Assembly (NCBI RefSeq): GCF_001695835.1
Contig: NZ_MBSO01000034.1
Location: forward strand, 62,001 to 126,000
From: Ensifer sp. LC11
Lineage (GTDB): Bacteria; Pseudomonadota; Alphaproteobacteria; Rhizobiales; Rhizobiaceae
Length of the DNA: 64,000 bases
Direction: 5' to 3'
Positions within the stretch are counted from its first letter, which is position 1; each line of letters starts with the position of its first letter. The notes under the pieces were generated by a model. The model was not told the origin of the DNA. It made no database searches and worked only from the letters and a program-made list of their open reading frames with translations. Below are positions 9,059-60,496 of the stretch, in pieces. Made by a program: the position numbers and the translations under genes.

Positions 9059-9085
9059 TTTTTGTTCCTCGATCTCGCGTCCGAC

Positions 9086-9700: not shown

Positions 9701-9838
9701 GATCGGTGCCTTCTTCGTCTTGCACGGCGTGAGGCACCTTTGGCCCCACTCCACAGGCAAAGCCGGACACGCGTCCGGCCGTTGCCCAAACCTATGTCAC
9801 ATGCACCGCCCTCCCCGGGGCGGCGCTACGCAATTGCC

Positions 9839-38746: not shown

Positions 38747-40306
38747 CTAAAGCTGGGACTCGATCGGCAGGATGCGGATCAGGCCGGCAATCATGCGCCG
38801 GGCAAGGCTCGCATCCGGTTCGTGGCGCAACAGTCGCTCGGAGCCGTTGCTGCGGTCTCGCCAGACAAGGCGCGAGCCGTCGATCCCGAGCTGATAGCTG
38901 ATCGAAGGCGACGTCTCCTGCTCGAACATTTCAGCCAGTTCGCCGGCAAGCGCGGCATCCGCAAAAACGACGCCCATTTCCGTGTTGAGCGAGGCCGAGC
39001 GCGGATCGAAGTTCATCGAGCCGACGAAGCCGTTCAAGCCATCGACCACGAAGGCCTTGCTGTGCAGGCTCGCATTGCGGCGCCCAAACAATGTCATGCG
39101 GTGCCCGTCGGCGACATCCCCCTGCTCCTTCAATTCAAACAGCGCGACACCGGCCCGGATGAGCTTTCGCCGATATTTGACATAGCCGCCATGAACGGCC
39201 GCGACGTCGGTTGCCGCGAGCGAATTGGTCAGCACCGCAACCCGCGCTCCGCGCGCGACGATGGCGGCAAGCTCCCGCGTGCCGGCAACACCGGGGATGA
39301 AATAGGGCGAGATGATCCTGAGATCGCGTGTCGCCGCTTCGATCAAGGGAAAAAGCTCGCGCAGCAACCAGTTCTGGCGCCGCTGCATCAGCGCCTTTTC
39401 CGGCGGATCCGATGCCAGGCGCACGTCCGTGCTCCAATGCAGCTGCCGCGCGCCGTGATAGATGTCGGCCTCGTGAGCTGCCTTGTCGATGCGCTCGAGG
39501 TAGAAGCGCCCCGCGGGCGTCCGGGCAAACCCATCGACGGCATCGCGCAGCGCCGGCAGGTATTGCTTGCGCGGGGTGCGCAGGGCGGCGATCGGAAGAA
39601 CCGAGGCGCTGTTCCAATAGCGGTCGAACATTGCCGATGCCTGTTCCAGCACCGGGCCCACCATCCAGACGTCGAGGTCGCGAAAGTTGGATAGCTCGGC
39701 CGCATCAAAATAGGCATCGCCGATGTTGCGGCCGCCGGCGATCGCCACACGGCCGTCGGCCACCCACAGCTTGTTGTGCATGCGGCGGGTCGCGCTGAAG
39801 GCGCGGATCGCCATTTCGAAGCCACGACGAAAGCGATCGGTGCGGGCGCGGCTCGGGTTGAAGAGCCGCACGTCGATATTGGCGTGAGCGTCAAGCGCAA
39901 TGCACATGCGATCGTGAATGCCAGCGTTGATATCGTCGAGCAGCAGCCGGACGCGCACCCCGCGGTCGGCGGCCGCAAGGATCTCGCGCGCGAGCAAAAG
40001 GCCGGTCAGATCATCCTTCCAGTAGTAATACTGCAGATCGAGGCTGCGACCGGCGCGCCGCGCCGCATGCGCCCGCACCACCAGAGCCTCGATATTGTCG
40101 GAGACGAGCGCCACGCCATTCGCGTCCGGATGGGCGGCAAGAATTGGCGCCAGATAGCGATCGAGTTCCGTGCCGGCGTCGTCCACCGGAAGTGCTGCGG
40201 ACGGCGGGCCGTGCGGTCGCCGTCCGAACCGGCCGTAAACATATAGGATCGTCGCCACGACCATGCCGACGATGGCGGCAACTGCGATCAGGACGGAGGA
40301 CAACAT
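38747..40306 (-). CDS. Phospholipase D-family / cardiolipin synthase-like protein
   Basis: This 519-aa membrane-anchored protein has one N-terminal transmembrane helix (residues 4-26). The two HKD catalytic motifs are MHNKLWVADGRVAIAGGRN and SLHSKAFVVDGLNGFVGSMN. The arrangement is that of bacterial cardiolipin synthases and related PLD phosphatidyltransferases, though some members are nucleases. The gene upstream on the same strand, an endonuclease/exonuclease/phosphatase protein, ends 24 bp before, so they form a likely two-gene operon. Confidence 0.88.
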   Translation of the reverse strand: MLSSVLIAVAAIVGMVVATILYVYGRFGRRPHGPPSAALPVDDAGTELDRYLAPILAAHPDANGVALVSDNIEALVVRAHAARRAGRSLDLQYYYWKDDLTGLLLAREILAAADRGVRVRLLLDDINAGIHDRMCIALDAHANIDVRLFNPSRARTDRFRRGFEMAIRAFSATRRMHNKLWVADGRVAIAGGRNIGDAYFDAAELSNFRDLDVWMVGPVLEQASAMFDRYWNSASVLPIAALRTPRKQYLPALRDAVDGFARTPAGRFYLERIDKAAHEADIYHGARQLHWSTDVRLASDPPEKALMQRRQNWLLRELFPLIEAATRDLRIISPYFIPGVAGTRELAAIVARGARVAVLTNSLAATDVAAVHGGYVKYRRKLIRAGVALFELKEQGDVADGHRMTLFGRRNASLHSKAFVVDGLNGFVGSMNFDPRSASLNTEMGVVFADAALAGELAEMFEQETSPSISYQLGIDGSRLVWRDRSNGSERLLRHEPDASLARRMIAGLIRILPIESQL

Positions 40307-40330
40307 CGAAAGCTCGCCCCGCGCCCGCCG

Positions 40331-41194
40331 TCAGACCGACCCGATGCGACCGGCCTTGCTCCGCATGCTCTCCCTGTGGTCTTGGCGCTGTTGAGCCATC
40401 TTCAGGTCGATCGAGGCCTTGACCGGCAAGTGGTCTGAAGCAACCCGCGCAAGCGGGGAGTCATGCACGGCCACCGACGTCACCAGATTGTGCGGGTTGC
40501 CGAGCACGCGGTCGAGCGGCAGCAGGGGAAAGCGCGAGGGGAAGCTCGCGACCGTGGCATGCGACGGGTCGAATACAGGGCTCAGGAAGGACAGGGACGA
40601 TCGCCTCCCCATCCGCCATTCGTTGAGATCACCGATGAGCAAGGTCGGACGCCCGTTTGCGTCGGCCGCCGCCTCCAGGATCGCCTCCGCCTGCTGGGCG
40701 CGCGAGTGCCTGAGAAGACCGAGATGAGCGGCGATGATGCGCAACGGGCCGACCTTCAGGTCGAGATCGACAACGAGCGCGCCACGCGGCTCAACGCCGG
40801 GCAGCTTCAATTGCCGCACATCCGAAACCGCACCTTCGCGCAGCAGCAGGACATTGCCGTGCCAGCCATGCCCCTTGGTCGAAAAGCCTGAGATCGGCAC
40901 CGAAACGAGGTGCGCCTCCCGGCGCAGGTGGTCCAGGTCAAGCAGCCCGGCGCGCTCGCCAAACCGCTGGTCAGCCTCCTGCAGCGCAACGATGTCGGCG
41001 CCGAGTTCACTGATCACATTGGCCGTGCGCCCAGGATCGAAACGGCCGTCCGTGCCGACACATTTGTGGATGTTGTAGGAGGCGATGACGATGTCGCCGC
41101 GACTGACTGCGGCTTCGCGATGCACGACCGTGGGGCGCCTCTTGCGGATCGCTGCCACGATCCCCGCCGATAGACTGGACTGGTTTTTTGCCAT
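40331..41194 (-). CDS. Endonuclease/exonuclease/phosphatase-family protein
   Basis: This 287-aa protein of the EEP fold has the visible blocks IASYNIHKCVGTDG (Asn), DIVALQEAD (Glu), LLIGDLNEW (D-x-N) and VASDHLPVKASI (SDH). These are the metal and catalytic residues of the family. The frame is open far upstream, but the ATG at 41194 (MAKNQSSLS) has AGGGAG just before it. It is co-oriented with the PLD gene, which suggests a joint role in lipid head-group or nucleic-acid hydrolysis; the substrate cannot be told. Confidence 0.87.
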   Translation of the reverse strand: MAKNQSSLSAGIVAAIRKRRPTVVHREAAVSRGDIVIASYNIHKCVGTDGRFDPGRTANVISELGADIVALQEADQRFGERAGLLDLDHLRREAHLVSVPISGFSTKGHGWHGNVLLLREGAVSDVRQLKLPGVEPRGALVVDLDLKVGPLRIIAAHLGLLRHSRAQQAEAILEAAADANGRPTLLIGDLNEWRMGRRSSLSFLSPVFDPSHATVASFPSRFPLLPLDRVLGNPHNLVTSVAVHDSPLARVASDHLPVKASIDLKMAQQRQDHRESMRSKAGRIGSV

Positions 41195-41354
41195 GCCGCT
41201 CCCTGCTTGCTGCCGCATCATGCGCAAATAGGTCGCGTGGTGCCACAGAAAAAGGGAGAGAAAGGGAAGTTTGTTTTTCGCAGCCGCAGCGTTGCGCAGA
41301 CAGCGATGTCGGCATCGCGCAAGCCGCGCCAGCATCCTTCGTCCCTTACCACCC

Positions 41355-42002
41355 TCAGTCGGCAGGCCCCGCGAAGAGGAGCAGATTGCCGTCCGGATCG
41401 AGCACGATGAAGGTGCGTGCGCCCCAGGGTTCCGTGCGCAATGACTGATGAAAGCGCACCCCGGCAGACTGAAAGCCCAGGAACAATTGCTTGATGTCAC
41501 TGGCGGTGTCCAGAGTGATCGCTGCCGAGAGCAGATCCTCGCGCTCGCGGATGTCGCCGACGAAAACCGGCTCGCAGACAAGCCGCAGAGCAAGGATCGC
41601 ATTGTCGCGGATCACCTGCCCGTAAAACGGCGGATCGCCATAGATGAAGTCGATGGCGAAGCCCAGCTTGTCCCGGTAGAAGGCGCATGAGGCCTTGATA
41701 TCGGCTACGTACAATTGTGCGGCAGTTGATCGCAGCATCGGCCGCGACGTGTCTGGCGTTGCTTGGGTGGTCATTGTCAGGGCTCCTGATTTGAGCGCCT
41801 GCCAACTGTCGAATCCCATTTGGCGCGCAACCAGTTCCTGCGCGTCGGCGAGCTTGAAGTCCGCTGCCAGCACTTCGTTGTCATCGAAGTTCCGGAAATG
41901 CGGCAAGAGGGCCCTGATCTCGGCGGCAACGGGATGATACCGTCCGCGATGCCATTTGAGATATTGTTTGGCCTGCTTCCTGAGGTTTTCTAGGTTCGGC
42001 AT
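41355..42002 (-). CDS. Glyoxalase/VOC-family protein with helical N-terminal domain
   Basis: This 215-aa protein (from the ATG at 42002, MPNLENLRKQAK) has about 70 N-terminal residues forming a small helical domain of the type LRKQAKQYL...ELVARQMGFDSWQALK. Then a VOC/bleomycin-resistance fold follows (QLYVADIKASCAFYRDKLGF ... RTFIVLDPDGNLLLFAG). It may bind metal and a small toxic compound. A GTG 18 codons upstream is open, but that N-terminus looks unlike the family. It is divergent from the P450 gene. Confidence 0.82.
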   Translation of the reverse strand: MPNLENLRKQAKQYLKWHRGRYHPVAAEIRALLPHFRNFDDNEVLAADFKLADAQELVARQMGFDSWQALKSGALTMTTQATPDTSRPMLRSTAAQLYVADIKASCAFYRDKLGFAIDFIYGDPPFYGQVIRDNAILALRLVCEPVFVGDIREREDLLSAAITLDTASDIKQLFLGFQSAGVRFHQSLRTEPWGARTFIVLDPDGNLLLFAGPAD

Positions 42003-44630: not shown

Positions 44631-44642
44631 GTGGGGACTGCC

Positions 44643-47600
44643 GTGCATTTAAACAGCCTCGATGACGATGGCCTCCGCAAAGAATTCGAGCGGTCCTACC
44701 ATCATCTTTGGACTCTCGAACGGCTCAATGACGTCTTGAAAAAGCGGTACTCTGATGCGGCGAACGAGCTTCAATTGCTGGTAGTCAAGAGACTTCGCGA
44801 GCTACGCGGCGTGTCCGCCCCCGCCTCTGTCCCGGGCGATCCAGCCAGTTTCTGGACGACGGCGTTCCTTAACAGGAGGAACCTGAAGACGCCTAACGGT
44901 CAGCCGTTCCACCGTTACCGGATGACCGATACGGAATTCAGCGAAGCTGGGGTGGTGCTCCGAGGTCTCGCTGCCAGGCGGAAGCTGATACCTGACCAGC
45001 GGACCGCCTGCGGGGTCTTTGCAGCATTCTGCGCTGAGTGGTTCCGACGGGAGGCAACGTCGACCTTCAGGAAATGGGACGCATTGGCACCCGATATCTT
45101 TCCGGCCATTCATGGAAACCAGAAGAGAGAGATGGCCGAAAATGGACTCAGATTCTGGCGACGCCCGCTTCTGGAGATCAACGGCACGAATGAGTACCTC
45201 CTTTCATTGGCGCTAGAGGGCGGTGTTCCCGTCAAGGTCATTGCGGATGAAGGTGCGGGGTGGCTTAGGGACTATCTGAGGCACCTGCTTCGTTTCGCGC
45301 TGGCGGGGCACGAGGTCGCCGCGGTGCGTGGCTATGCCCATGACGAGTCCTATAGGATTAAGCTCAGCTATCGGAACGATGCGTTTGTCGACCTCTGCGC
45401 GGAGCTGGCAGCCGAAGTCGCCAAATGGCGAACCGTTGTGGAAAGCGAGGCTATCGCCGGGATCGATCCTGTTTCCTTTTTGGACGCCAAGTACCCAACC
45501 TGGAAGGACTCCATCCCGGTCTACCTCCCGACAGGCGCGGACTCGGCGGCTCGGGTTCTCCTCACGGGGCTAATCGCGGAGAAGATCGAAGCCTTCTCGA
45601 GCCATGGCCTTGGATGCGAAAGGTTCCTTAGCTTAGAAGGTGGGGTGTGGCAGCCTGCACTTCGGATAAAGGCAACAGGGGACATTCCGATTGGTCGGCT
45701 CCCCGGTGTATCAACGGCGACTCGGTGGCGCGCAACACCATCCGGTATTTTGGCCGACTATCTTCCCAGCCAGTTGGCTTTGTTCGAGCCGCCGTCCGAC
45801 GACCAGCAGTCCTGGCGGGTCCGCCCTTTGGCTGATCTGAGCCGAATGATAGTCGGGTTCCCACTTTCAGCGACCGTCAGCGTGAACATCACGGCTAACA
45901 ACAGTGTTCATGCGTTCGATTGGCCAAACGGCCAGCGAGCTACGTCCGACGTTCTCGTTTTCGATGAAGTAGACCCGTCGGAAACCCCCACCCTACTTCG
46001 ACTGGTCAAAACGGGGTCATCGAGCCTTCCGTCCAAGAAGCTGTTCGTATTGGTGCCTGCGGCATGGACAATAGAAGGCAGCGACGAAGCCGTCGGACGG
46101 ACGTGGCGGGTGGCTGATCGAAAACTGATCGAGGTGACTGGGACCTGTTACTTATCTGAGGCTGTGGTCACCGAAGGTGGTCGATATCGCATTCAAGCGG
46201 GGAGTGAAGAGCGCGACGAAACGATCGAGCTGACCTCACGTTCCTCGCCGGGGATAAGCGCCGCCGGCGATTTCGACGTCATGGAAGCGCCCGTCAGGCT
46301 GGTTATCACCAGGAATGGAGCGCCCCGCCCGATCGAACGGGATGAATTGTTCGTCAGGCAATCCGGAGGACCTTGGAGGACGCTGCCCCGGGGAGAAATT
46401 CCTGACGTCGGCATGATCGAACTTTCGTGGCGCGACCCGAAATCCAATATTTACATAGAAAAGCGGCGCATCGCTGTTGTTCCGGCTGGAGCGTCGGTCA
46501 AAGGCCTCTTGAAGACGCCAACGACCGGGCGGATATCGCTGGCCGAGCTCCCCGGGTGGCAGCTCGCACTTTCCAATGTCGCGAACGCCGTTTCGCGGAA
46601 CGATGCTGGCAACATTCTTATCGAATTCAGCGGCAAACCAAACTACCGTCTACCGGCACTATTGGAGCCTCCCGAGGGCAAACCGATCCCGATCCTGGTC
46701 CCGGTTGCCGCCCGCGATTCAGTTATCGTGAACGGTGATGGCGAGGTGGTTGATGCCGGGCAGCAAATGGACCTGGCATCTCTTCGCGGCTCGCGGGCGA
46801 TTTCCTCTCACAAATCGGTCCTGGTGATCTCGCGCAAGGGTTCCAAGTCGCAGGATATCTCAGTTGAGGTGGACGGAGAGTTTGCGATCTCCACGCTCAA
46901 GTCGACGATCGAACAGATCATGGCAAGCGTCGAGCATCAGGATGTCAAGCTCGATATGCATTTCGTTGGCGATTCCCGGCTGCCCATCCGACTTGCGAGG
47001 TATCGTTGGGATCGCCCGAGGCAAGAACAAGGAGCCGTCATATTTTCCACCGTGGGCGTCGCGGTCTGCCGTCCTGTCCTCGCCCCAGAGGTCGAGCGCA
47101 CGCTGGACCATTTCCAACCTGATCGATTCCGTCTGCCTGAAGATGTGTATGGTCCCTGCCTAGTTTACCTGCGCGACGGGCCTGACATACTGACCCGGCC
47201 ACTGCTCCTCATTGGGGCTGCGGAGGTACCTGCGTTTCCTTCGGGGTCGTTGCGAACTGCGCTCTGCCTGAGGAATTACAGTGAACTTCAAACGGCAATC
47301 GCGGAGCGGCTGGGAAAGCTCTGGTGTGATCCGAACGCAATTGAGGACCTAGCCTACATCAGGTCGCTAGTCGGAAACCTTGACGGCCTGCCGCCGACCG
47401 CGTTCGAAGGCCTCAAGAACCTCCCGCATCATCCTAAGACCTTGGTTCGGTTGCTGCTGGGGGCAGCTGACGACAAAAGCCGTGTAGCGGTGTGGGGATT
47501 GCAGGGACAGTTGCCGTTCATCTGGCTTGGTATCCCCCTTGAGTGCTGGAAATGCGCACTCGACTTTGAGCGGAGCACGATAGAAAATGCGCTGGCGCAG

Positions 47601-48062
47601 GTTCCGGGCACTGACGAGTTTCGACTCGAAATCTTGGTTAAGTACTTCCGGGATAAACTCGCAAGCCTGGTCGACATCGAGCCCTCTCTCGCGGCGATCT
47701 TCTCAGCGCTCGACTTTCCCCTCACGCCCCGCACCAAGCCGCTAGAGAACATTATCGAAGACTTCATCAAAGACCAGCGGTCGCGGGAAACCGAAGACTC
47801 GAGCAGCGTCGTTCGGGCAGCTCCCCTCGCCCGTCGTGTGTCCGAACTCGGGCTTACCGTTCCCAATGGCATAAGTCACCGCTTCAGTCTTGGAGACTTT
47901 GACGCGCTTTACGGGCCCGTCCTTCTTGCTGCGAGCGCGTGCGGGCTTGCGATCATCGACCGCGATCTCGAAGTCCCGCTTCGGGCCGCGCTTCACGAGA
48001 ACGGTGCGTTCGTCTCCGAGGCCTATCCCCATTTCTTCAATTTCTTCAGGACCAAAATATGA
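44643..48062 (+). CDS. druH: Druantia type III-like anti-phage protein DruH
   Basis: This 1139-aa protein has no catalytic motif I can name. The N-terminal region is helical (residues 1-60, Leu/Glu/Arg-rich); the middle is beta-rich with repeated Ig-like stretches; the end is again helical. Identification rests on size, sequence character (the STY4851/ECs_5259-type family) and the 4-bp ATGA overlap with a DUF1998 helicase over 2000 aa, the two-gene make-up of Druantia type III. The GTG at 44643 has GGGGA 5 nt upstream and is preferred over the GTG at 44631. Expected role: phage defence together with DruE, mechanism unknown. Confidence 0.75.
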   Translation: MHLNSLDDDGLRKEFERSYHHLWTLERLNDVLKKRYSDAANELQLLVVKRLRELRGVSAPASVPGDPASFWTTAFLNRRNLKTPNGQPFHRYRMTDTEFSEAGVVLRGLAARRKLIPDQRTACGVFAAFCAEWFRREATSTFRKWDALAPDIFPAIHGNQKREMAENGLRFWRRPLLEINGTNEYLLSLALEGGVPVKVIADEGAGWLRDYLRHLLRFALAGHEVAAVRGYAHDESYRIKLSYRNDAFVDLCAELAAEVAKWRTVVESEAIAGIDPVSFLDAKYPTWKDSIPVYLPTGADSAARVLLTGLIAEKIEAFSSHGLGCERFLSLEGGVWQPALRIKATGDIPIGRLPGVSTATRWRATPSGILADYLPSQLALFEPPSDDQQSWRVRPLADLSRMIVGFPLSATVSVNITANNSVHAFDWPNGQRATSDVLVFDEVDPSETPTLLRLVKTGSSSLPSKKLFVLVPAAWTIEGSDEAVGRTWRVADRKLIEVTGTCYLSEAVVTEGGRYRIQAGSEERDETIELTSRSSPGISAAGDFDVMEAPVRLVITRNGAPRPIERDELFVRQSGGPWRTLPRGEIPDVGMIELSWRDPKSNIYIEKRRIAVVPAGASVKGLLKTPTTGRISLAELPGWQLALSNVANAVSRNDAGNILIEFSGKPNYRLPALLEPPEGKPIPILVPVAARDSVIVNGDGEVVDAGQQMDLASLRGSRAISSHKSVLVISRKGSKSQDISVEVDGEFAISTLKSTIEQIMASVEHQDVKLDMHFVGDSRLPIRLARYRWDRPRQEQGAVIFSTVGVAVCRPVLAPEVERTLDHFQPDRFRLPEDVYGPCLVYLRDGPDILTRPLLLIGAAEVPAFPSGSLRTALCLRNYSELQTAIAERLGKLWCDPNAIEDLAYIRSLVGNLDGLPPTAFEGLKNLPHHPKTLVRLLLGAADDKSRVAVWGLQGQLPFIWLGIPLECWKCALDFERSTIENALAQVPGTDEFRLEILVKYFRDKLASLVDIEPSLAAIFSALDFPLTPRTKPLENIIEDFIKDQRSRETEDSSSVVRAAPLARRVSELGLTVPNGISHRFSLGDFDALYGPVLLAASACGLAIIDRDLEVPLRAALHENGAFVSEAYPHFFNFFRTKI

Positions 48063-51000
48063 AACCCTTTGAAACCCTGGCCGACATCAGACGTCGATCC
48101 GTAGACGCCGTCGTGGCGCAGCTTGGTACCAATAACGAGGCCCTGAACCAGCAACTGCGTTCCATGCTCGGTAGCGAGCGGACCGGGGACGGCTCTCTCA
48201 TTCAAGACCCCGTCATCGAAGGAGCGCACCCTTTCATTACAGCCGCCGAAAGTATGGCTGAAGTCCCGCCAGATGTGCTCCGTCCGCAACTCGTGTCGAT
48301 CCTGGACGGCCTCGATGAGGAAGACGAATATCGGTTTCCAAAATCCAGAAAACCCTTCAGGCATCAGCTGCAGTCCTGGAACAAACTTGCGCAGCCCGGA
48401 ACCCCGCAATCGGTGCTCGTTACGTCGGGGACTGGCTCAGGAAAAACGGAGTGCTTTCTTTTTCCGATCCTCAGTGACCTCATCAGGCAGACCGAGGGCA
48501 ACTCGTCAACATTGGAGGGCGTCCAGGCGATCATGCTGTACCCGCTGAACGCCCTCATCGAAAGTCAGCGGGCGCGTTTGTCCGCGTGGACAAGTCCCCT
48601 GAAGGGCCGCGTCCGGTACTGCCTCTACAACGGCGATCTTCCGCAGCCGGCTCTCCCAGAGAGCGAACGCAAGGCTTCGCCCGAACGCCAAATCGACAGA
48701 CATCAGCTTCGCTCTTCACCAGCCCCAATATTGGTGACGAACATTACAATGCTCGAGTACATGCTGGCTCGAGCTGAAGACCAACCGATCATCGAGAAGT
48801 CAAACGGGAAACTGCGGTGGATCGTATTGGACGAGGCACATTCGCTGGTCGGTGCTGCCGCTGCCGAAACAGCGCTGCTCATCCGACGTGTCCTGCTCGC
48901 ATTCAACACCGCCCCCGAGAACGTTCATTTCGTGGCTACCTCGGCAACGATCGGAGATGACCGGGACACCGATGACAAGCTTCGACAGTTTCTGGCCGAG
49001 GTCGCGGGCATACCTGACGACCAAGTGCATGTGATCAAGGGTGACCGCGCCCTACCCCATCGTCCGAATGCCAAAGCCGACATGCAGATCGATCCATCGG
49101 CAGCGACTCCCGCCGAGCTCTACGATTTTTTCGGAGGAAAGAAACAGGTCTGGGAATTTATCAGAACGCTCAAGGAAAAACCGCAACCGCTAACGGCGCT
49201 GGCAACGGTCGCGAGGTCCGTCGGTATCGAAACCGAAGACTTTATGTCTCTGCTGGCCGCCGCTGAAAAATCGCATCCTGAGACCGGGGAACCGGAGCGC
49301 CTCGCGCCAATGAGGGTGCACAGCTTCGAGCGAGCAATCCCCGGCATCTGGGGATGCGTGAATCCAAACTGCGTAGCCTCACCATCGGGATGGCCGTTTG
49401 GGAAGTTGTTTCCCAGTAAATTCGAGAACTGCGACACATGCGGTTCTCCCGTGGTCGAGCTGATCAGCTGTACCGAGTGCGGAGAGCCAATGCTGGAGGC
49501 GGAAGAAGACAGGTCGGCTGGTAAATTGCGCCCGTCCCCTCGGGGATTGGAGCGAGACGAGTTCCAGTATGAGGCCGAGCGCGACGGAGAACTGGACGCC
49601 GAGGGCGACGAGGACGAAGACCAGGAGGACGGCGACGCGTCGATTGCCCAGAACAAATACATGGCAAAGCAGACCATCCTGTTCGCCGCAACCCCTTCAA
49701 AATCCTCCCGTCCCATCTCCCTATCCACCAAGGATTGGAGCGTGCTGGCGGGTTCGACTGCCGCCTCCGTGACCTTGAGGTACGAGGAAAAGTCGGTCGC
49801 CGACGGCGTCTGCCCTTGCTGTGGCGTCAATGCGCTGCGCGGCATCGACAATCTGCTCCGACCTGTACGTTTCGGCGCGCCGTTCATGGTCACGGCGGCC
49901 GCACCAATACTGCTTGAAGCTGTCGATCCGAAGCCCAACAGCGAACGCACATTGCCCTCCTCTGGGAGGGGGCTCATTTCATTCACTGACAGCCGCCAGG
50001 GAACAGCCCGGATGTCGGCGAAGTTCCAAGCGGAGTCCGAGCGAAATTTCGTGCGGTCGTTCATCTACCATGCAGTGCAAGGCGCGCTTGCGGCCGACGA
50101 GGACACTCCCGAGGTAGCAAACGTTCGCGCGGTTATCGCGCAACTCGAACCCTTGGTTGGCACGAACCCGGGACTACAGCTCTTAATGGACGGACAACGC
50201 GACCAATTGGCGAAGCTCACAAGCGAAAGGGTGATCGGCGTCAACTGGAACGAACTCATTGATCGCCTCGCGAGGAGACCAGAGGTCGAATTCTGGATGA
50301 AGGAGGTCTGGGAACCCCGCGACCCAGATCGCTTCGGTGATGCGCACAAACTGGCGGAGTTCCTGTTGTTGCGCGAGCTGTTCAGACGCCCGCGGCGCGC
50401 GAATTCGCTTGAGACCCTGGCACTGGCATGCCTCAAGTTCCCGTCTGTGGAGCGCGTTGCTTCCATGCCGCCAGCGTTCACACGCCGCGGGAAAACGATA
50501 AATGACTGGCGTTATTTCCTGACCGCCATCATCAATCACTTCATACGCGCGAAATCGGCGGTGGATGTAGATCGTCGCACGATGCGCTGGATCGCACCTC
50601 AGATTAAGTTGCGGCCGCTTCTCGGCCCGGGGCGCTCCAGCGGAGGCGACAAGCGTTATGTGATTTGGCCCAGGGTTCCTCGGAACCTGTCGAGCCTGTC
50701 CACGCCGCAGACCCTCCTCATCATGGGCCTGAAGCTCGACATCGCCGACCCAAGCGATCGTGACGACATGCAGGATTGCCTTCAGATGGCGTGGGATCAG
50801 CTCCAACAGGTGTTGAACGCCGACCGTGACAATCCCGCGCTCGACTTCTCAAAGGCGGTCGTCGCGCCTGTGACCGACGCCTTCCGATGCCCGATCACTC
50901 GCAAGGCAATAGAGATCGCACCTTTCGGCCTCACTCCCTACGTTCGCATCAATTCGGCGGTTTCGGATGCCACTCCGCTCAGGATGCCGGAGATTCCAAT

Positions 51001-54000
51001 CCAGCTCATCGCGTCCGACGATCCAGCATCAGCCAAATCAAAAGTCTCGGACTGGCTGAACACCGACGGACGGGTCGCCGATCTCAAGAAGGCGGGCATT
51101 TGGGTCAACATCTCCGAGCGCATTGCGCTCTTCGTCGACTACGCCCGGTCCGCCGAACACTCCGCGCAACAGGAAAGCCAGCGTCTCCGACAATACGAGA
51201 CGGATTTCAAGGATGGTCGGATAAACATCCTAAACTGCTCCACGACGATGGAAATGGGCGTGGACATCGGCTCCGTTTCCACGGTGATGATGACGAACGT
51301 TCCGCCGTCTATCGCGAACTATCGCCAGAGAGTAGGCCGCGCAGGGCGGCGTAGGCAGCCGTTCTCAATGGCATTCACGTTCTGCCGGGACCGCCCCCTA
51401 GATCGCGAAGCCTTTGGAAACCCCTTGGCATACCTCGATCGAGCAATGTCACCTCCCAAGGTCGCCTTAAACAGCCGGCCAATCGTCCAGCGGCACGTCA
51501 ATGCATATCTTCTCCGCCAATACATGCTGACCAGGGGCGGCGACACTCTGAAGCTGACAATCGGCTCGCTGATGGGTTGCCCGATCAAACTGCTTGAAGG
51601 TCGGGTCGAAAGTCCCCCGGTATCGCAATTCCTTCAATGGCTGGAAGACCCAAGTACCATCCGTGCGACGACCGCGGACTTGAAGACGCTAGTGGCTCGG
51701 TCCGTGTTGGAGCAGGACAACACGCTCGTAGAGGATTGCCGGACGGCAATGCTGGAGGTGGAAGAGGTTTTTGTTCACGAATGGGAAGGCCTTCGTCAAC
51801 TTGCACGCGACGAAAGCGAGAACATGAAGGAAGCTGGCCGAGCTCGAATGTCGCTCGAACTCCAGAGGCTTTGCGGCGAATTCCTCCTTAGCGCTCTCGC
51901 TGACAGAGGTTTCCTACCGGGACATGGTTTCCCGACGAACGTTGTCACGTTCATACCTCACAGGTCGAAGAAGCCAAAGCAAGATGACCCGTCGCTAGAC
52001 GGTCGCAGACACGCGAGGCTGTCCGGCCCCCAACGATCCCTAGACCTAGCGATACGCGACTATGCCCCCGGTTCGGAAGTCGTCCTGGACGGCCTCGTGC
52101 ACCGCTCGGCCGGAGTTCTACTCAATTGGAAACGACCTGCGACCGAAGAAAAGGTCAGAGAGGTCCAAAGCATTCGCCGACACTGGTGCTGCTCGCAATG
52201 CGGAGCGGCCGAGACCACCCTCCAGGATGTGCGTGTGTGCCGCGAATGTGGCGCGCAGGTACTCAGCGTCGAATACCTACGGCCCAGCGGATTTGCTGTC
52301 GACTTCTGGAAAAAGGAACACGCAGATACCGATCGGATCACATACGTTGCGCCCGAGGAACCCATCGTGTCCATCGCAGAGCAACCCTGGATCGCGCTCC
52401 CTATCCCATCTTTGGGGCGCTACCGCGGGAGCGGCGAAGGCACCGTGTACTATTCGAACGCCGGACCGACCAGGAATGGTTACGCGGTATGTTTGCACTG
52501 CGGTCGCGCCGAACCCGAGCTTGATCCCGCCGGCAATTCCGACGATGCCCGTTCGTTATCCCCTCTGGATGGACACCGCCCGCTGAGACGGAAAGCAGCC
52601 GACGGCGACATCATCTGCGAAGGTGTCGAGAAAAAGTGGAAAATCAAACGGAATCTCGCCCTCGGTTACGAGATCACGACTGACGTCTTCGAGCTGCAGC
52701 CTTCAACTCGAATTTCTAAAGCGGCGGCGACCGCATTGGTTATCGCCATGCGTGAAGCTCTTGCACGCTCGCTAGGCGTGGAAGCAGACGAAATGGGTTA
52801 TTCCGTGCATCGCTCCAAGAACGAACTTGGTGGTGACTGCAATTCTCTGCTCGTCTTTGACAAGAACGCCGGCGGCGCTGGATTCTCGATTGCGATGGGC
52901 TACAACATTGCGATGGTACTCAAGGATGCGGAGGGAATCCTAGATTGCAGCAGTCCAGGGTGTGTTAACGGCTGCGCAGCCTGCGTTCTTACCTCGGACG
53001 CTCCGTTCGAGGACGGAGAATTGGACAGGACTTCAGCCCTCGCGTTCGTTCGCGGCCATCTGAGCTTTGGTGCTGCGGTCGAAGTCAGAGACCGTTTCTC
53101 TGATGACACGGTTCTCTCGATCGTGGTCACCGACGAAGTCGATCGCGAACTTAAACGTCGCAATGATCCGCTTCTGAGAATTTACATACCCGAGGATGCC
53201 GATCTCGGGCAGATACCTTCGTGGTCGATTATGCAAGAACTGAGCACCTGGTCATACCGTGGATATCGGATCGCTGTCGTGGTGCCACCCAAGATGGTCG
53301 CACGAGCCGATCAGGCATCGAAGCTCGTTCTTCAGGCGCTGGGACACAGACTATCCGTGGACGACAGGTTCGCGATCCATATCGGCGAGATACCGATATG
53401 CTCAAACGGCGCGAGTGTTCTTGCGACCGTCAGCGGGAATGGCGAGACAATAGCTTGGGCGACACATAGCGCTTCATCTCGCTATCCTGGCATCACGTGG
53501 GGGCAGCCAGTGGAAGGCTCTATCTTCAGGGGGACCATCCAAGACACGGTGCCGACAAACCCGATTTCCCCTTCGGAGCTTCTCCCGCAATCTACTGCGA
53601 AGGTGCTTCTCATCGAGAAGAATCTGGATCGTGCGATGAGCCTCTTCGGAACAGGCATGGCAGGGCTGATCCGCACCAATCTAGCGAACCTCGGATTTGA
53701 AGCGGACACCGCGATATCACGGATTGAATATAAGGACCCGTATGTACGCTCTCCGTTAGTGTCAAAACTGCTTATCGACACGGCAGCGGCATTGTTCAAG
53801 TCCTCGACCGCGCCCATCTTAAAAATCACGACCGCGCCGCCGAAAGTGCCACTTTCACCTCCAAAGCACATCCCGAACGACTGGCCCGACGGCCACTTGG
53901 TTTCCTCGGTGCAAGCAGAATATGGTCGTCTGAAGAACATTGACGTCCAAGTCAGCCTCGGCGACTGCGGTCATGGTCGATTCATGGAGTTGACGTTTAC

Positions 54001-54190
54001 CGATGGGCGCGCGGCCACTGTGATTTTTGACCAAGGCTTCGGTGCTTGGACTCCAACAGTCCGGGACAACCGCACACTGCATGACTTCACGCAGACGCCG
54101 TTCGCACAAGCGACGTCGATGCAGAAAGCCAATCCGATGCTAGCGAGAAAGGGAGTGTGGCCGACATACGTCGTCCTAAGAGCTGAATAG
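48059..54190 (+). CDS. druE: Druantia DruE-like giant DEAD/DEAH helicase with DUF1998 domain
   Basis: This 2043-aa protein has Walker A VTSGTGSGKTECFLFPIL (about residue 120-137), DEAH box IVLDEAHSLVGAA (about 254-266) and motif III FVATSATIGD. A cysteine-rich insertion follows (CVNPNC...CDTCG...CTECGEP, about 433-480), then an acidic stretch at about 501-528. Motifs V-VI are NCSTTMEMGVDIGSVS and YRQRVGRAGRRRQPF near 1090. After a second zinc region (HWCCSQCG...CRECGAQ) comes the DUF1998/MZB domain with CSSPGCVNGCAACVL near 1630. This is the DruE architecture. Its start overlaps the druH stop, so the two are translated together. Confidence 0.85.
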   Translation: MKPFETLADIRRRSVDAVVAQLGTNNEALNQQLRSMLGSERTGDGSLIQDPVIEGAHPFITAAESMAEVPPDVLRPQLVSILDGLDEEDEYRFPKSRKPFRHQLQSWNKLAQPGTPQSVLVTSGTGSGKTECFLFPILSDLIRQTEGNSSTLEGVQAIMLYPLNALIESQRARLSAWTSPLKGRVRYCLYNGDLPQPALPESERKASPERQIDRHQLRSSPAPILVTNITMLEYMLARAEDQPIIEKSNGKLRWIVLDEAHSLVGAAAAETALLIRRVLLAFNTAPENVHFVATSATIGDDRDTDDKLRQFLAEVAGIPDDQVHVIKGDRALPHRPNAKADMQIDPSAATPAELYDFFGGKKQVWEFIRTLKEKPQPLTALATVARSVGIETEDFMSLLAAAEKSHPETGEPERLAPMRVHSFERAIPGIWGCVNPNCVASPSGWPFGKLFPSKFENCDTCGSPVVELISCTECGEPMLEAEEDRSAGKLRPSPRGLERDEFQYEAERDGELDAEGDEDEDQEDGDASIAQNKYMAKQTILFAATPSKSSRPISLSTKDWSVLAGSTAASVTLRYEEKSVADGVCPCCGVNALRGIDNLLRPVRFGAPFMVTAAAPILLEAVDPKPNSERTLPSSGRGLISFTDSRQGTARMSAKFQAESERNFVRSFIYHAVQGALAADEDTPEVANVRAVIAQLEPLVGTNPGLQLLMDGQRDQLAKLTSERVIGVNWNELIDRLARRPEVEFWMKEVWEPRDPDRFGDAHKLAEFLLLRELFRRPRRANSLETLALACLKFPSVERVASMPPAFTRRGKTINDWRYFLTAIINHFIRAKSAVDVDRRTMRWIAPQIKLRPLLGPGRSSGGDKRYVIWPRVPRNLSSLSTPQTLLIMGLKLDIADPSDRDDMQDCLQMAWDQLQQVLNADRDNPALDFSKAVVAPVTDAFRCPITRKAIEIAPFGLTPYVRINSAVSDATPLRMPEIPIQLIASDDPASAKSKVSDWLNTDGRVADLKKAGIWVNISERIALFVDYARSAEHSAQQESQRLRQYETDFKDGRINILNCSTTMEMGVDIGSVSTVMMTNVPPSIANYRQRVGRAGRRRQPFSMAFTFCRDRPLDREAFGNPLAYLDRAMSPPKVALNSRPIVQRHVNAYLLRQYMLTRGGDTLKLTIGSLMGCPIKLLEGRVESPPVSQFLQWLEDPSTIRATTADLKTLVARSVLEQDNTLVEDCRTAMLEVEEVFVHEWEGLRQLARDESENMKEAGRARMSLELQRLCGEFLLSALADRGFLPGHGFPTNVVTFIPHRSKKPKQDDPSLDGRRHARLSGPQRSLDLAIRDYAPGSEVVLDGLVHRSAGVLLNWKRPATEEKVREVQSIRRHWCCSQCGAAETTLQDVRVCRECGAQVLSVEYLRPSGFAVDFWKKEHADTDRITYVAPEEPIVSIAEQPWIALPIPSLGRYRGSGEGTVYYSNAGPTRNGYAVCLHCGRAEPELDPAGNSDDARSLSPLDGHRPLRRKAADGDIICEGVEKKWKIKRNLALGYEITTDVFELQPSTRISKAAATALVIAMREALARSLGVEADEMGYSVHRSKNELGGDCNSLLVFDKNAGGAGFSIAMGYNIAMVLKDAEGILDCSSPGCVNGCAACVLTSDAPFEDGELDRTSALAFVRGHLSFGAAVEVRDRFSDDTVLSIVVTDEVDRELKRRNDPLLRIYIPEDADLGQIPSWSIMQELSTWSYRGYRIAVVVPPKMVARADQASKLVLQALGHRLSVDDRFAIHIGEIPICSNGASVLATVSGNGETIAWATHSASSRYPGITWGQPVEGSIFRGTIQDTVPTNPISPSELLPQSTAKVLLIEKNLDRAMSLFGTGMAGLIRTNLANLGFEADTAISRIEYKDPYVRSPLVSKLLIDTAAALFKSSTAPILKITTAPPKVPLSPPKHIPNDWPDGHLVSSVQAEYGRLKNIDVQVSLGDCGHGRFMELTFTDGRAATVIFDQGFGAWTPTVRDNRTLHDFTQTPFAQATSMQKANPMLARKGVWPTYVVLRAE

Positions 54191-54340: not shown

Positions 54341-55087
54341 TCAAGGTTCGCCAGCCATAGGCAGAGAGACGTTTCGCTTATCGACGTACACATGGCTTCG
54401 TTTGATTGCGCCCGGGTCGGTAAGCTTCGGTGTGACCGAAACGACTGCGACCTTCCAGTTTGGAAGCGTCGGCTGCGGCGCAGGCATAACGCCGCTGAGT
54501 ACGGTCAGCCCTCGCCTCTCCATCCCCCTGATGTGGTCCAGGATGTCGTTATACAACTTGCGCCGGCGCGGTTCGTCGTCGAAGGAGTTCTCAATCCAAT
54601 CAGCTAAAACGAAGGATGCGAGGTCCAGGTATTCGGCAAGGTTGGCGATGTCTTCATCATACGTTTGCGGGACATCCGGCCTGTGTAGGAGGATGCCATC
54701 GCATTTGGCGGCTTCCCGGATTGCACGGTGGGTTTTCATAGGAGAGACCGCAACCTCTTCGAGATGGCCGTAGGTCTCGACAAGGCTTTCAAACGCCTTC
54801 TCTGGTCCGAGCGGTATCCGGGGTGCGTGATATGCCCCCTTTTCGTAACCGAGCGCGACCGCGATCCTATCGAGGGCCTCTTCGCTTACCCTATCTCCGC
54901 GCTCCACCCTTTCGACAGTGGAGATCGAGACCCGAGCGAAGTCGGCAAGCGTCGATACCTTCCAATTTTTCAGGTTCCGTGACCACCGCACGACGAAAGC
55001 AACGACCTCCACCGGAGGTGGCGTCGGCACATCCGTCCGGCGCTCAGGCAACTGTGCAATCTTTTCAATGATATCTGATACGTTCAT
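54341..55087 (-). CDS. XRE-type helix-turn-helix protein downstream of the retron
   Basis: This 248-aa protein has a lambda-repressor-like helix-turn-helix at about residues 33-75 (RNLKNWKVSTLADFARVSIS, then TVERVERGDRVSEEALDRIA). The remaining ~170 residues have no fold I recognise: a helical middle and a beta-rich end (LPNWKVAVVSVTPK). AGGAG lies 8 nt before the ATG. It follows the RT-protease gene on the same strand by 123 bp, so it may be co-transcribed, either as the island's regulator or as a third retron component. No direct evidence decides between them. Confidence 0.8.
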   Translation of the reverse strand: MNVSDIIEKIAQLPERRTDVPTPPPVEVVAFVVRWSRNLKNWKVSTLADFARVSISTVERVERGDRVSEEALDRIAVALGYEKGAYHAPRIPLGPEKAFESLVETYGHLEEVAVSPMKTHRAIREAAKCDGILLHRPDVPQTYDEDIANLAEYLDLASFVLADWIENSFDDEPRRRKLYNDILDHIRGMERRGLTVLSGVMPAPQPTLPNWKVAVVSVTPKLTDPGAIKRSHVYVDKRNVSLPMAGEP

Positions 55088-55210
55088 CGAGCAATCTCCT
55101 TTCGATGCTCGGAAGATGCCCTGGATGCGTCGAGGAAAAGAGTCTCGAAAATCCTTCAGCTACGCGGGAATTTCAACGCTTGGCGGTTCGCATGCCCCTA
55201 TGCGCGCGGG

Positions 55211-56746
55211 TTAGCGCCCATCGAGCCAAGCTGTCAAAGCATCTATATGAACTGCGAAGTCCCTGCCTTCTTCGGGGCCGCCCTTGTGAATGACACCAGC
55301 TACCTTGTCGTCTTCATCAAGGACTGGCCCTCCTGACATCCCCTGGGTTAGCTTTTGTGTGACCTCGATAAGCGGAACCGCACTCTTTACCGCGAAGCTG
55401 CTGATGTGGCCTGAACGAACATTCAAACTGTCCCCGGGTCCATAACCTGGATATCCGACCGCCGTCAGCGCGTCTCCGAGTGACGGCGCTCTAGTCGCCA
55501 TTTCGAGCTCGAAGAATTCGTGAGCAGGAATCTCGTGGTCCAAGATCGCAAGGTCGCGGACGGTGTGATGCTGTCTGACCCGTGCCTTGAAAACATTCGA
55601 TGGCTTCGAGGGATGATAGACATCGATCTCTTGTCCAAGCGCCTCCTCAATACAGTGAGCGGCGGTAACCAAACCCACGTCTTTCAAAAAGAAAGCACTT
55701 CCCTGGGCAAATTTGCCCTCGAAGTGTTCGATCACCCATACGGCTCGACTCCTGATTTGCGCGCGGGTCGGTGAAACCTTGATGGGCTGCGTAGGAAAAG
55801 AGGAATTAAAGCGGGCAGCGATCGCACGGAAGATTGGGTCGGATTGCCCCTTTACGCTTCCAAGCCATGAAATCTCACCTTTCAGGTGTTGGCTAAGGCG
55901 GCACTTCCCTCCGTATTCGACTTCGAATTTCTTCTGCGCGGTATCTGCGCCCAGGGTCTCGATCGAATACAGAGTGCTCCTGATGTTCCGGACAAAACGC
56001 CTGTCAACGTTCAAACCGGAATTGATTTTGAGCCCGGTCACTATCCGGCGGCTGTGCTTGTCGCCGTAGTGCGATTTGCTCGGGTTGAGCTTGAACCCGT
56101 TGTTCGTGAACGCCCCGATCAGCCTCTGCGAGAGCAGGTCCGGGACAAAATTGCCTGTCGGAGGAACGCCTTCAGCGAACAGGCCTCCAGGTGGCTGATA
56201 GCTCGAAAAGGTGATGTCGTCGGCATACCGTGTGTAGATGCAATGTGCCGCCTTGGCGATCGCCTGAAGTTCCTTGTCGAGTTTGAAGCAAACCATGTTC
56301 GACAAGACCGGGCTGGTCGGCGCACCTTGCGGCAGGACCCCCTGGTTGGTGCACAGACGGGCAACCACGACCGCGACGGACTCGTCGACCCCGATGGCCT
56401 TCAGAAGACCCGCAACACGGTTTTCAGAAATGGACGGAAAGAAGCGTTCGACATCCAAATTTACGACGAACTTGCTTTTCAGGTGTGAGGTCGCGTTAGT
56501 CCTGACGGATCGATCCGGGACAAATCCATGGACTGGATTTCTGGGCGAGTAGATTTGATCGAGAAGTAGCGCGATCGTCCTCTGTAGCATTTTCAGCCGC
56601 CGATCAGGCGCGCTGATAATTCTGGGTTTCCCGGACTTCGAAAGAAGGGGAAAGTCTTTGTACATCCGCCCCCGGAACCACCAAATCTTGCGCAGCTCGG
56701 CTTCGGACAGACAAAGGTGGCCTAAAAACGTGGTGAGGTCCGTCAT
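55211..56746 (-). CDS. Retron reverse transcriptase fused to trypsin-like serine protease
   Basis: This 511-aa protein starts at the ATG at 56746 (MTDLTTFLG). Residues 1-310 are a retron-type RT: NLDVERFFPS with Asp98, VLPQGAPTSPVLSN, the catalytic YADD at 174-177 within TRYADDITFSS, and RIVTGLKIN, the VTG motif of retron RTs. Residues 340-511 are a trypsin-fold protease with a full triad: H364 in LVTAAHC, D398 in VRDLAIL and S471 in TQGMSGGPVLD. There is no signal peptide, so the protease acts in the cytoplasm. The frame is open 25 codons further upstream, but that part overlaps the candidate msr-msd RNA. Only a GGAG directly abutting the ATG is seen. Defence by abortive infection is inferred. 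Confidence 0.9.
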   Translation of the reverse strand: MTDLTTFLGHLCLSEAELRKIWWFRGRMYKDFPLLSKSGKPRIISAPDRRLKMLQRTIALLLDQIYSPRNPVHGFVPDRSVRTNATSHLKSKFVVNLDVERFFPSISENRVAGLLKAIGVDESVAVVVARLCTNQGVLPQGAPTSPVLSNMVCFKLDKELQAIAKAAHCIYTRYADDITFSSYQPPGGLFAEGVPPTGNFVPDLLSQRLIGAFTNNGFKLNPSKSHYGDKHSRRIVTGLKINSGLNVDRRFVRNIRSTLYSIETLGADTAQKKFEVEYGGKCRLSQHLKGEISWLGSVKGQSDPIFRAIAARFNSSFPTQPIKVSPTRAQIRSRAVWVIEHFEGKFAQGSAFFLKDVGLVTAAHCIEEALGQEIDVYHPSKPSNVFKARVRQHHTVRDLAILDHEIPAHEFFELEMATRAPSLGDALTAVGYPGYGPGDSLNVRSGHISSFAVKSAVPLIEVTQKLTQGMSGGPVLDEDDKVAGVIHKGGPEEGRDFAVHIDALTAWLDGR

Positions 56747-56801
56747 CTCCGAAGGTATGCGGACGCGGAAGCTGACGCCGCCGAAAACGCGCAAGGGGTG
56801 T

Positions 56802-56926
56802 GGCACGAGGTCTCCCTCCAATCACGCCATGTGCATTCAGGCATACGTGGCGCGCACGATATTGTAGATACATTCGCTCTTACGCCGCAGTTCCTACAGC
56901 GCGTATGCGAGGGGAGACCTCGTGCC
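56802..56926 (-). ncRNA. Candidate retron msr-msd RNA
   Basis: On the minus strand this 125-nt segment is bounded by a perfect 15-bp inverted repeat, GGCACGAGGTCTCCC (56926-56912) and GGGAGACCTCGTGCC (56816-56802), matching the a1/a2 repeats that define retron RNAs. Inside are a stem-loop CGCTGTAG-GAA-CTGCGGCG as msr candidate and an imperfect hairpin CGCGCCACGTATGC / GCACATGGCG with loop CTGAAT as msd candidate. It lies directly upstream of, and partly within, the extended RT frame, 55 nt before the chosen start. The branching guanosine cannot be assigned by eye. Confidence 0.75.
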
Positions 56927-57213
56927 GAATCCAATACCAACTGGTCAGACAGACGGATAGCGCCTGAACGGCCTTCCGGATTGTTTCAACAGGGTTTTCG
57001 ATCGGAAGTAGAACACGCGGTCGCGTACGTCGTGGTCAGGGCACTTGTAGAAGCGAACTGAGGACACTATTTTGGTGGAGGCTCATGACAGGAGCCTGAC
57101 GCCCGTCAACGCAAAGCTGCTAGCGGCACTGTCGAAATGAACCCTACCCCGTCCATGTCTGGTTCGGGCTCGGGAGTGGAGCGGGCGACACTCGTTGGAG
57201 CTGGAGAATCGGC

Positions 57214-58053
57214 ATGCCGACCCCAAAGGTTCGTCCTTCGTCCATCGACGGAATTAAGAGACTTGCAAAGCGGATAGCGTCCGAGAAGTCGTTGAAGCAC
57301 ACAGCTGCGCTTGATGAGGCAGCCCGCATCGCCGGCTACCAGACTTTTCTCCACGCCAAGCGCAGCCTTTCGCGTGCGAATGAGCCTGCGCCCCCGCCAA
57401 ATGCAAGGACATCAGCAGCTATGAATTCTAGCGACTTTCACACTCGCGCCCGCTCCCTGTGGGTGGACACAATCAATCAGTTTGCATCCGACGGCGATGC
57501 GACAATTTCTTGGGACGACATCGACGATATTGTCCGTGTTATGTCTCCTTTTATGGGCTCAAACAAAAACCACGCCCATCTACCGACTGGTGGCGGTTTC
57601 GACTTCTTGTCTGTCAGAAAGAGTGTCGAACGCGGTTGCATCGAATTCCAGGTCTTCACCGGTTCCGCAATCATCGCTAAACCCCGTCGCCTGGTTCTGG
57701 AGCGGCTCTCTTCCGATCCGGCCCAGTCTTTCCTGATGCTGGAGCTTGGTGACTTGCCGCCTGCTGTCGCGCGTGATGAGGAAAGAACCGAGCGTGCTCG
57801 TGGCCGGCGGCAAGAAGAATTGCTCGATCTTGGAGGTGGCGACTACGTTGAACGCGGAAGTGTCTATGAAGAAGATATTCCGGACACCGCGCGCAACGTG
57901 GTGCGGCTTTTCAACGGCCAGGTGATGCTTGTTGCGAAAGGAAGCATCTGGAACGGCACGTCCGCGACCTACAGCGGTCTTCACGACACCGGAAGCCACT
58001 CGGAAATCAGGAAAGTTATCCAAGAGATTTCGGACAAATTGGCCGAAGCTTAG
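57214..58053 (+). CDS. DUF5623-like protein of unknown function
   Basis: This 279-aa protein has about 55 N-terminal residues (SSIDGIKRLAKRIASEKSLK, then HTAALDEAARIAGYQTFLHA) forming a small helical domain resembling the N-terminus of DUF5623 and glyoxalase-associated proteins. The remainder is a predicted alpha/beta domain with no motif I know. GGAGAA lies before the ATG. It is divergent from the retron RNA and convergent with the CoiA-like gene. The position among defence genes makes an immune or mobile-element role possible but unproven. Confidence 0.75.
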   Translation: MPTPKVRPSSIDGIKRLAKRIASEKSLKHTAALDEAARIAGYQTFLHAKRSLSRANEPAPPPNARTSAAMNSSDFHTRARSLWVDTINQFASDGDATISWDDIDDIVRVMSPFMGSNKNHAHLPTGGGFDFLSVRKSVERGCIEFQVFTGSAIIAKPRRLVLERLSSDPAQSFLMLELGDLPPAVARDEERTERARGRRQEELLDLGGGDYVERGSVYEEDIPDTARNVVRLFNGQVMLVAKGSIWNGTSATYSGLHDTGSHSEIRKVIQEISDKLAEA

Positions 58054-59249: not shown

Positions 59250-60037
59250 TTACATGGCGTGCCCGACAGTGATGCCGAGCGAAGCTGCCGCCATCCAGAT
59301 GGCCATGGCAATCATCATCAGGTTTTCCGTGAGCGAGATGAAGCCGAGCGGAACGTTGCTAGACCCGCCGACACAAGCGCACTTCAGCTCCCTCTTGTCG
59401 ATGTAGACTGCCTTGAAGACGGATGCGGCTCCGACCGTGCCGATGAAGAGCGCAACCGGAACCGACAGCCAGTTCAGTGCTCCCGCGATCATCAGAGCTC
59501 CGGCCAGGCCCTCGGCATAGGGGTAGATGTAGCTGTACGGAACCCAGCGCTTCGCCAGCAAGTATAGTTCAGGAACATGGTTGCGAAGCCTTCGACGTTC
59601 TGGAGCTTCAGCAGGGCAAGGACGACCATCGAGAAGGCGATGAACCATTCAGCCGCACGCAGTGTGAACGGGCTGCCGTCAACCGCGTAGCTGGCGGCCG
59701 TTGCCATCAGGGCGGTCAAAGCGAAGAGGACGACGACGGGGCGATAGCTCGTGGCCTTGGGGTCCGCGATGGGCTTGCCGAGGAACCTGCGAAGCTCGTC
59801 GTATCCTCCGACCCTTTGTTCGCCGATGAACACTTGCGGTGTCGTCGCCACTCCGTGCTGTGCCTTGAAGGCGTCTGTCTCCTCGCGGGTCGTCAGGTGT
59901 CGGTCCTCGACTTCATAGCCCGACCGCTTCAGCAAGTCCTTTGCCTTCAGGCCATAGGGGCACGTATGCTCGCCCATCACCATCCGATAGAGTACCGCCT
60001 TCTTTGACAGATATTCCCGGTTCGGCTTGTCCAACAT
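59250..60037 (-). pseudogene. Glutaredoxin-MauE fusion gene with a single-base frameshift
   Basis: Two minus-strand frames read as one protein of about 262 aa broken at about 59563. The first (from the ATG at 60037, AAGGAG upstream) codes a glutaredoxin domain (EHTCPYGLKAKDLLKRSGYE, ATTPQVFIGEQRVGGYDEL) and the first membrane helices. The second continues LLAKRWVPYSYIYPYAEGL with MauE/DoxX-like helices and a CACVGG cysteine pair. Adding one base between TAT and ACTTG (as in AACTATGACTTGCTG) restores the frame. No slippery heptamer is seen. The CPYG active site lacks a second cysteine, so a monothiol type. It is either a real inactivating deletion or a sequencing error. Confidence 0.85.
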
Positions 60038-60074
60038 TTCACGTCTCCTTCAATCTTGTGAAACCGTTGGTAAG

Positions 60075-60106
60075 ACCATACGTTCCGTACCATGGTACGG
60101 AGTCAA
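60075..60106 (-). promoter_or_regulatory. MerR-type promoter/operator
   Basis: On the minus strand TTGACT (60106-60101) and TATGGT (60080-60075) are spaced by 20 bp, too long for normal sigma-70 use but typical of MerR-activated promoters. The spacer holds the perfect 18-bp palindrome TCCGTACCATGGTACGGA (60084-60101), nearly the classical mer operator. It would drive the glutaredoxin-MauE gene and repress or control the divergent regulator. Confidence 0.85.
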
Positions 60107-60112
60107 GAGCCC

Positions 60113-60496
60113 ATGCAGATGACAATTGGAAAACTTGCAGCTGCCGGAAATGTCGGCGTAGAGACGATCCGCTACTATCAGCGGCGGGGGTTGCTGGACA
60201 CGCCCCGACGGTCCGAGGGTGTGCGCCGCTACGGTGACGAGGACGTGCGCCGGCTGTTGTTTATCAGGCAGGCGCAGACGGCTGGTTTCACGCTTGAGGA
60301 GATCAAGGAGCTTCTCGATCTGGATACCGGACAAGACAGGGAGAGAGCGCGAAACCTCGCGAAGAGTCGCATCGACGCCCTGGACACCAGGATCGCCGAA
60401 CTCCAGCGCGCGCGAGCAGCATTGCAACGCCTCGTCGGGGAATGCGCCACGGGCAAGTCAGGTCCTTGTCCGATCCTGGCGTCCTTCGATTTGTAA
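60113..60496 (+). CDS. MerR-family transcriptional regulator (mer-like)
   Basis: This 127-aa protein has the helix-turn-helix and wing at residues 3-70 (TIGKLAAAGNVGVETIRYYQ, EGVRRYGDEDVRRL), then the dimerisation helix and a C-terminal metal loop. Of the three mercury ligands of classical MerR it keeps two positions, Cys111 (GEC) and Cys119 (GPCPILASF); the first, usually before the long helix, is replaced in LDLDTGQDRERA. The ATG at 60113 avoids the operator; an ATG at 60092 would lie inside the palindrome. It is divergent from the glutaredoxin-MauE gene and should activate it. Confidence 0.9.
   Translation: MQMTIGKLAAAGNVGVETIRYYQRRGLLDTPRRSEGVRRYGDEDVRRLLFIRQAQTAGFTLEEIKELLDLDTGQDRERARNLAKSRIDALDTRIAELQRARAALQRLVGECATGKSGPCPILASFDL

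Follow-up and report, generated by a model that had tools for sequence, protein, structure and literature searches.

An apparently intact type XI retron in Ensifer sp. LC11 with a covarying template RNA and a probable RT-protease start codon inside its a2 repeat

A 64,000-nucleotide stretch of DNA from Ensifer sp. LC11 (the window) contains on its minus strand what is, judging from its sequence, an apparently intact and well-supported type XI retron. At this level the locus is a reverse transcriptase (RT)-protease fusion with intact catalytic residues, a covarying template RNA and a start codon that lies in the a2 repeat of that RNA; from there on we infer msDNA synthesis, inhibition and release of the protease, abortive defence, translational coupling and a protease target. 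By analogy, the locus is probably an anti-phage device. Type XI is a known, little-studied kind of retron to which the locus adds one member, the class being already known because PADLOC-DB of 2023 has models for it. Among the matches listed in the literature searched, no experiments on type XI or RT-protease retrons were found, and one article (PMC11953036) was discarded, as the matching portion of its text held 'type XI' only as the prefix of 'type XIII'. This analysis contributes an RNA backed by covariation, a correction of the start and the overlap between start and a2.

Comparison with PADLOC gave matches to both RT-Protease_XI models (PDLC02959/PDLC02960), the better at 6.3e-180 (597 bits) and the other at 2.7e-179 (595 bits), in an alignment covering residues 3-508 of the 511 initially annotated and hence nearly the whole protein, which agrees with the label 'type XI' given in the initial annotation. 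Type XII RT-TIR came next with 309 bits and type I-C RT-Toprim after it with 282, and retron RTs made up all of the best 25 of 80 PADLOC families. Identity as a group II intron RT was rejected, with 45.9 bits for the group II intron RT/maturase model against a cut-off of 300, and the group II, Drt2 and Drt3a models scored 28-46 bits, all under their own cut-offs. An NCBIfam search with the RT-protease returned zero models above cut-off, and an Rfam scan of 55000-57600 gave no match up to E 1. Taking identity alone, we consider it almost certain that this is a type XI retron.

The fusion gene occupies 55211..56806 of the minus strand, stop included, and encodes 531 residues from a GTG at 56806, or 511 from the ATG at 56746, on the combined basis of PADLOC, Pfam and a comparison of starts. 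The 511-residue frame is open and carries the motifs NATSH, YADD, VTG, TAAHC, DLAILD and GMSGGP; NAxxH, YADD and VTG are marks of retron RTs. Pfam identified RVT_1 and Trypsin_2 domains, and motifs and Pfam agree on the retron-type RT and full trypsin triad that had been read in one chain (H364, D398 and S471 from ATG 56746, equal to H384, D418 and S491 when numbered from the GTG). NAxxH, YADD and VTG were found in all 26 compared proteins, the window's included, and the protease triad was complete in 23 of them, the exceptions being L004, whose C-terminal part is on a different contig, L047, which has an internal stop, and L051, which has lost the serine block. This last copy, on a Phaeobacter plasmid (L051 5902-7446), has lost its protease end beside an IS3 element and kept its RT motifs. 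Other damaged copies were L005, which is in two frames and lacks the N-terminal half, and L057/L058, interrupted by a frame break and a stop. L055 (1812-1896) has almost nothing between msr and RT coding part: msd, a2 and start are absent, and the remaining frame is open.

An AlphaFold2 model built from 17 sequences had a mean pLDDT of 80.6 and a pTM of 0.46, with the domains usable and the RT/protease arrangement unreliable. Searching solved structures with this model gave retron Eco2 first (E 1.7e-19), followed by the Ec86, Eco7, Ec83 and Ec78 RTs; with the PADLOC scores (597 bits as against 46 for group II), these best structures uphold the earlier choice of a retron RT rather than a group II intron RT. 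The protease part matched Deg2, DegS and MucD in structure, and the strand after the catalytic serine was inspected with no call made on protease specificity.

Upstream of the RT the initial annotation had described a perfect 15-bp repeat framing 125 nt with two stem-loops, and both repeat and fold were found as claimed. On the minus strand, the a1 arm (56912..56926) is a perfect complement of the a2 arm (56802..56816) over 15/15 nt, with 95 nt between them. No other perfect repeat of at least 15 nt at a gap of 60-200 nt occurs in the window, and a first-order Markov simulation of 100 sequences of 64 kb, at the dinucleotide frequencies of the window, produced one such repeat in total. The putative msr-msd template RNA from a1 to a2 (56802..56926, minus strand, 125 nt) passed the suggested folding check at -63.9 kcal/mol compared with a shuffle mean of -40.9 (200 shuffles, none as low; z -6.0), with an a1/a2 closing stem and two main internal stem-loops in the predicted fold. 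Retron templates are laid out as a1, msr loop, hairpin and a2. Here, all on the minus strand, a1 is adjoined by a candidate branching G (56908), which is invariant in 21/21 aligned rows and whose role is assigned from retron biology. The msr stem-loop follows (56882..56902; seven pairs, 100% of cells paired, 5/7 pairs invariant) and then the msd hairpin (56823..56854; five core pairs, three with two-sided changes, and a variable loop), which probably forms part of the msDNA template. A search of 55000-57300 revealed no promoter-like site.

For covariation we cut out 25 upstream regions, the window's included; L034, L041, L048 and L056 equal L031 in this part, which gives 21 distinct rows, and L005 (3' part only), L055 (damaged) and L049-L053 (distant or cut) were left out of the alignment. 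RNAalifold proposed the structure, from which one weak outer pair was dropped to leave 28 pairs, and over these pairs and 21 rows 97.8% of cells were paired. Two-sided changes occurred in 14/28 pairs, compared with a shuffle mean of 3.2 (0/500 shuffles as high), and were divided into 10 in the closing a1/a2 stem, three in the msd hairpin and one in the msr loop, so that the repeat arms do covary in homologous loci; slid control versions had 30-53% of cells paired and at most five two-sided pairs. Because kinship inflates these counts and the structure was derived from the same alignment, a held-out test matters, and the covariance model R1 matched all 139 of its positions in the held-out IMG/VR locus L062 (130.8 bits, E 1e-29). 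Across the window's own genome R1 found the window site, a weaker reverse-strand shadow of it and nothing else. At the distant type XI loci L049-L052 R1 did not detect the RNAs; folded singly, the upstream regions of these four had closing repeats and z values of -2.3, -4.9, -4.9 and -3.5, respectively. A type XII (RT-TIR) locus, L006 1227-1381, gave a weak R1 match (14.3 bits, E 0.17) and has its own closing repeat, and type XI and type XII RNAs perhaps share ancestry.

The initial start at ATG 56746 appears to be 20 codons too late. The frame stays open upstream of it, and the gene probably starts at the GTG at 56804..56806 (minus strand), within a2, giving 531 residues and not 511, a conclusion drawn from the conserved triplet in relatives and the annotation of a plasmid homologue. 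An in-frame start lies within a2 in 20/21 distinct rows (18 GTG, TTG in L043 and ATG in L047; L046 is without one), and in 9/21 (L004, L031, L032, L033, L035, L036, L037, L038 and L054) it is the sole in-frame start upstream of aligned residue 1. In L043 a1 is altered in step with the start triplet in a2, and the GTG in a2 is also where the NCBI annotation begins the Haematobacter plasmid homologue. A Shine-Dalgarno-like GGAGGGAG (56812..56819, minus strand) ends 5 nt before the GTG and lies partly in a2. Codon-position changes in the extension numbered 30, 10 and 39 for positions 1, 2 and 3, a coding-like and weak signal from 11 non-independent pairs. In predicted folds of 20 leaders, calculated without a shuffle control, the mean unpaired fraction was 0.08 for the Shine-Dalgarno-like site and 0.10 for the start with a1, rising to 0.39 and 0.38 without it; the start remained paired (at most 0.15 unpaired) without a1 in 8/20 leaders, and in L003 it was 0.70 unpaired even with a1 present.

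We examined how widely such loci occur, and a search of genome contigs yielded 12. At E 1e-60, whole-genome samples, which overlap and each include the window's own genome, gave 7/394 genomes for the family, 6/397 for the order, 1/385 for the class and 2/299 for the phylum, and two groups chosen around other matches gave 2/111 and 1/20 genomes; a first family search with 61/151 was run at a loose cut-off, and its count also takes in other retron RTs as well as proteases. Where hosts of close relatives are named, they belong mainly to the Hyphomicrobiales and Rhodobacterales. Five plasmid records covered at least 80% of the query, one of them at 62% identity, and one phage record did so at 34% identity. 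A protein search of viral contigs gave no relative, and L062 came to light in IMG/VR through a short msr pattern, an earlier RNA pattern having given no match. This 52,470-base record, filed as viral, has the type XI retron at 1208-2912 and an integrase-like frame ~6 kb further on (9010-10143), and its retron is likely on a mobile carrier.

In the window a second defence system, Druantia type III, adjoins the retron, with DruH3 at 44631-48062 and DruE3 at 47939-54190 (PADLOC E-values 0). No neighbouring gene recurs as a possible substrate or partner across 26 loci, in a comparison of frames of at least 80 codons that took up to 6 kb on each side for 17 loci and ~1.5 kb for eight. The only clusters in at least six of the 26 loci were the RT-protease itself and overlapping shadow frames, the largest other cluster (five loci) contains DUF4365 and SIR2-like genes, and many four-locus clusters trace to one shared context. 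The window also contains a glutaredoxin-domain gene beside a MerR-family regulator (59492-60496), and a PLD-like gene with a weak DrmC-like score adjoining an exo/endonuclease/phosphatase gene (38747-41602).

The likeliest function, by analogy with Eco2, is defence by a caged protease. The transcript would fold as msr-msd RNA with the a1/a2 stem closing, and the RT domain, priming from the G adjoining a1, would make a short msDNA copy of the msd hairpin. The msDNA-RNA complex would then hold the fused HtrA-like protease inactive, as is thought for Toprim in Eco2, until damage to the msDNA by a phage factor, or its binding by one, frees the protease to cleave cell or phage proteins and so stop the infected cell. 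Because the start codon sits in a2, an RNA probably cannot be folded as template and translated at the same time, and folding together with RT binding may hold protease output to what the available RNA can cage. We give this whole mechanism, the coupling through a2 included, a probability of roughly 0.5. Counted for it were the RT-Protease_XI match, motif conservation, covariation, the fit of L062, the Eco2 structural match and Druantia III next door; counted against it were the missing promoter-like site, the failure of R1 at L049-L052, the absence of a start in a2 in L046, the 8/20 leaders paired without a1, the open start of L003 with a1, and the pTM of 0.46.

RT-protease output may thus be coupled to RNA folding via a2, at moderate odds and with some results against it. 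In a more elaborate form a2 would switch between two uses, its 15 nt either closing the template or beginning translation of the toxic fusion: only RNA still unfolded and unbound would yield RT-protease, the binding of RT-protease would shut its own production so that no protease arises without an RNA cage, and the HtrA-like domain would rest on a trimeric complex like that of Eco2 until phage damage to the msDNA set it free. HtrA-like folds often work as trimers. If true, such a switch would give retrons with an RT-fused effector a built-in dosage control; taken whole, with autoregulation and trimer, we think it unlikely. Close to even odds, on the other hand, fall to an overlap that has no regulatory role and reflects a compact gene translated from nascent or unfolded RNA. 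The folding is in keeping with this, removal of a1 freeing the start in only part of the leaders, and so are other retrons. The first genome search had also given 21 other RT loci, of which 12 had a repeat of at least 10 Watson-Crick pairs; the start lies inside the presumed a2 of the non-type XI retrons L013, L014, L016 and possibly L024, and in the type I-C L008-L010 it is 0-6 nt past a2. Ten plasmid retron RTs with annotated starts likewise included L071, with its start in a2, and L072 and L064 (second-ranked repeat), with starts 5-8 nt after it. Yet a gap is kept by type I-C L011 (24 nt) and by 6/10 plasmid retrons (20-42 nt; L068 with weak arms), and the distant type XI L049-L052 start 4-32 nt past a2 where a repeat was found; the region upstream of L070 had no repeat. 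The idea that a start in a2 is peculiar to the type XI group was dropped, as it is seen sporadically in other retrons. The overlap is a recurring layout, nearly fixed in the type XI group here, and possibly a general one among retrons. Against a purely incidental overlap stand the start triplet held in place in 20/21 distinct sequences of this group, whether as GTG, TTG or ATG, and the matching change of a1 in L043.

Two further rivals bear on the caged-protease mechanism itself. The protease could activate another protein or trim the RT-protease itself instead of carrying out general killing cleavage, and according to PMC12799240 the trypsin-like proteases fused to defence proteins in Avs, Lamassu, Hachiman and DRT systems do cleave a pro-nuclease with which they are paired. 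With no gene recurring beside the RT-protease in the 26 loci, a comparison that an unlinked target would escape, we regard this as possible and rather improbable. That the hairpin is solely a translational control element and no msDNA is made would suit a start codon sitting in a stem; we judge it highly improbable, given the msr-like invariant stem-loop, the separate covarying hairpin, the retron RT motifs with all catalytic residues, and an order of elements that is the retron template layout. With the template RNA defined, the start corrected and the catalytic residues complete, this locus and its relatives open the way to a direct test of whether msDNA can gate a protease, and the start in a2 suggests a simple and testable way in which a toxic-fusion retron might balance protein and RNA.

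Compared with known systems, the protease domain shares fold and catalytic triad with the HtrA/Deg proteases DegS, Deg2 and MucD, whereas here it comes after an RT and Pfam matched no PDZ domain. The RT part has type XII (RT-TIR) as its second-best PADLOC family, at 309 bits, with a TIR domain there and a protease here. Eco2/Ec67 (type I-C, RT-Toprim) is likewise a one-chain RT-effector fusion and the best solved-structure match, and several relatives of this type have, as here, a start codon near a2. According to the Eco2 report (PMC12405507), the effector there is a Toprim RNase and not a protease, and Eco2 forms a self-inhibited msDNA complex for which escape mutants implicate phage DenB as the trigger. 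Type XI retrons as modelled in PADLOC have the same RT and trypsin-like protease in one chain, a whole-length HMM match and a single gene, while the locus here belongs to an alphaproteobacterial group with an N-terminal extension of 17-22 residues, the PADLOC models beginning at about that point. More distant type XI proteins have 29-33% identity and begin past a2, whereas those of the group described here begin inside it.
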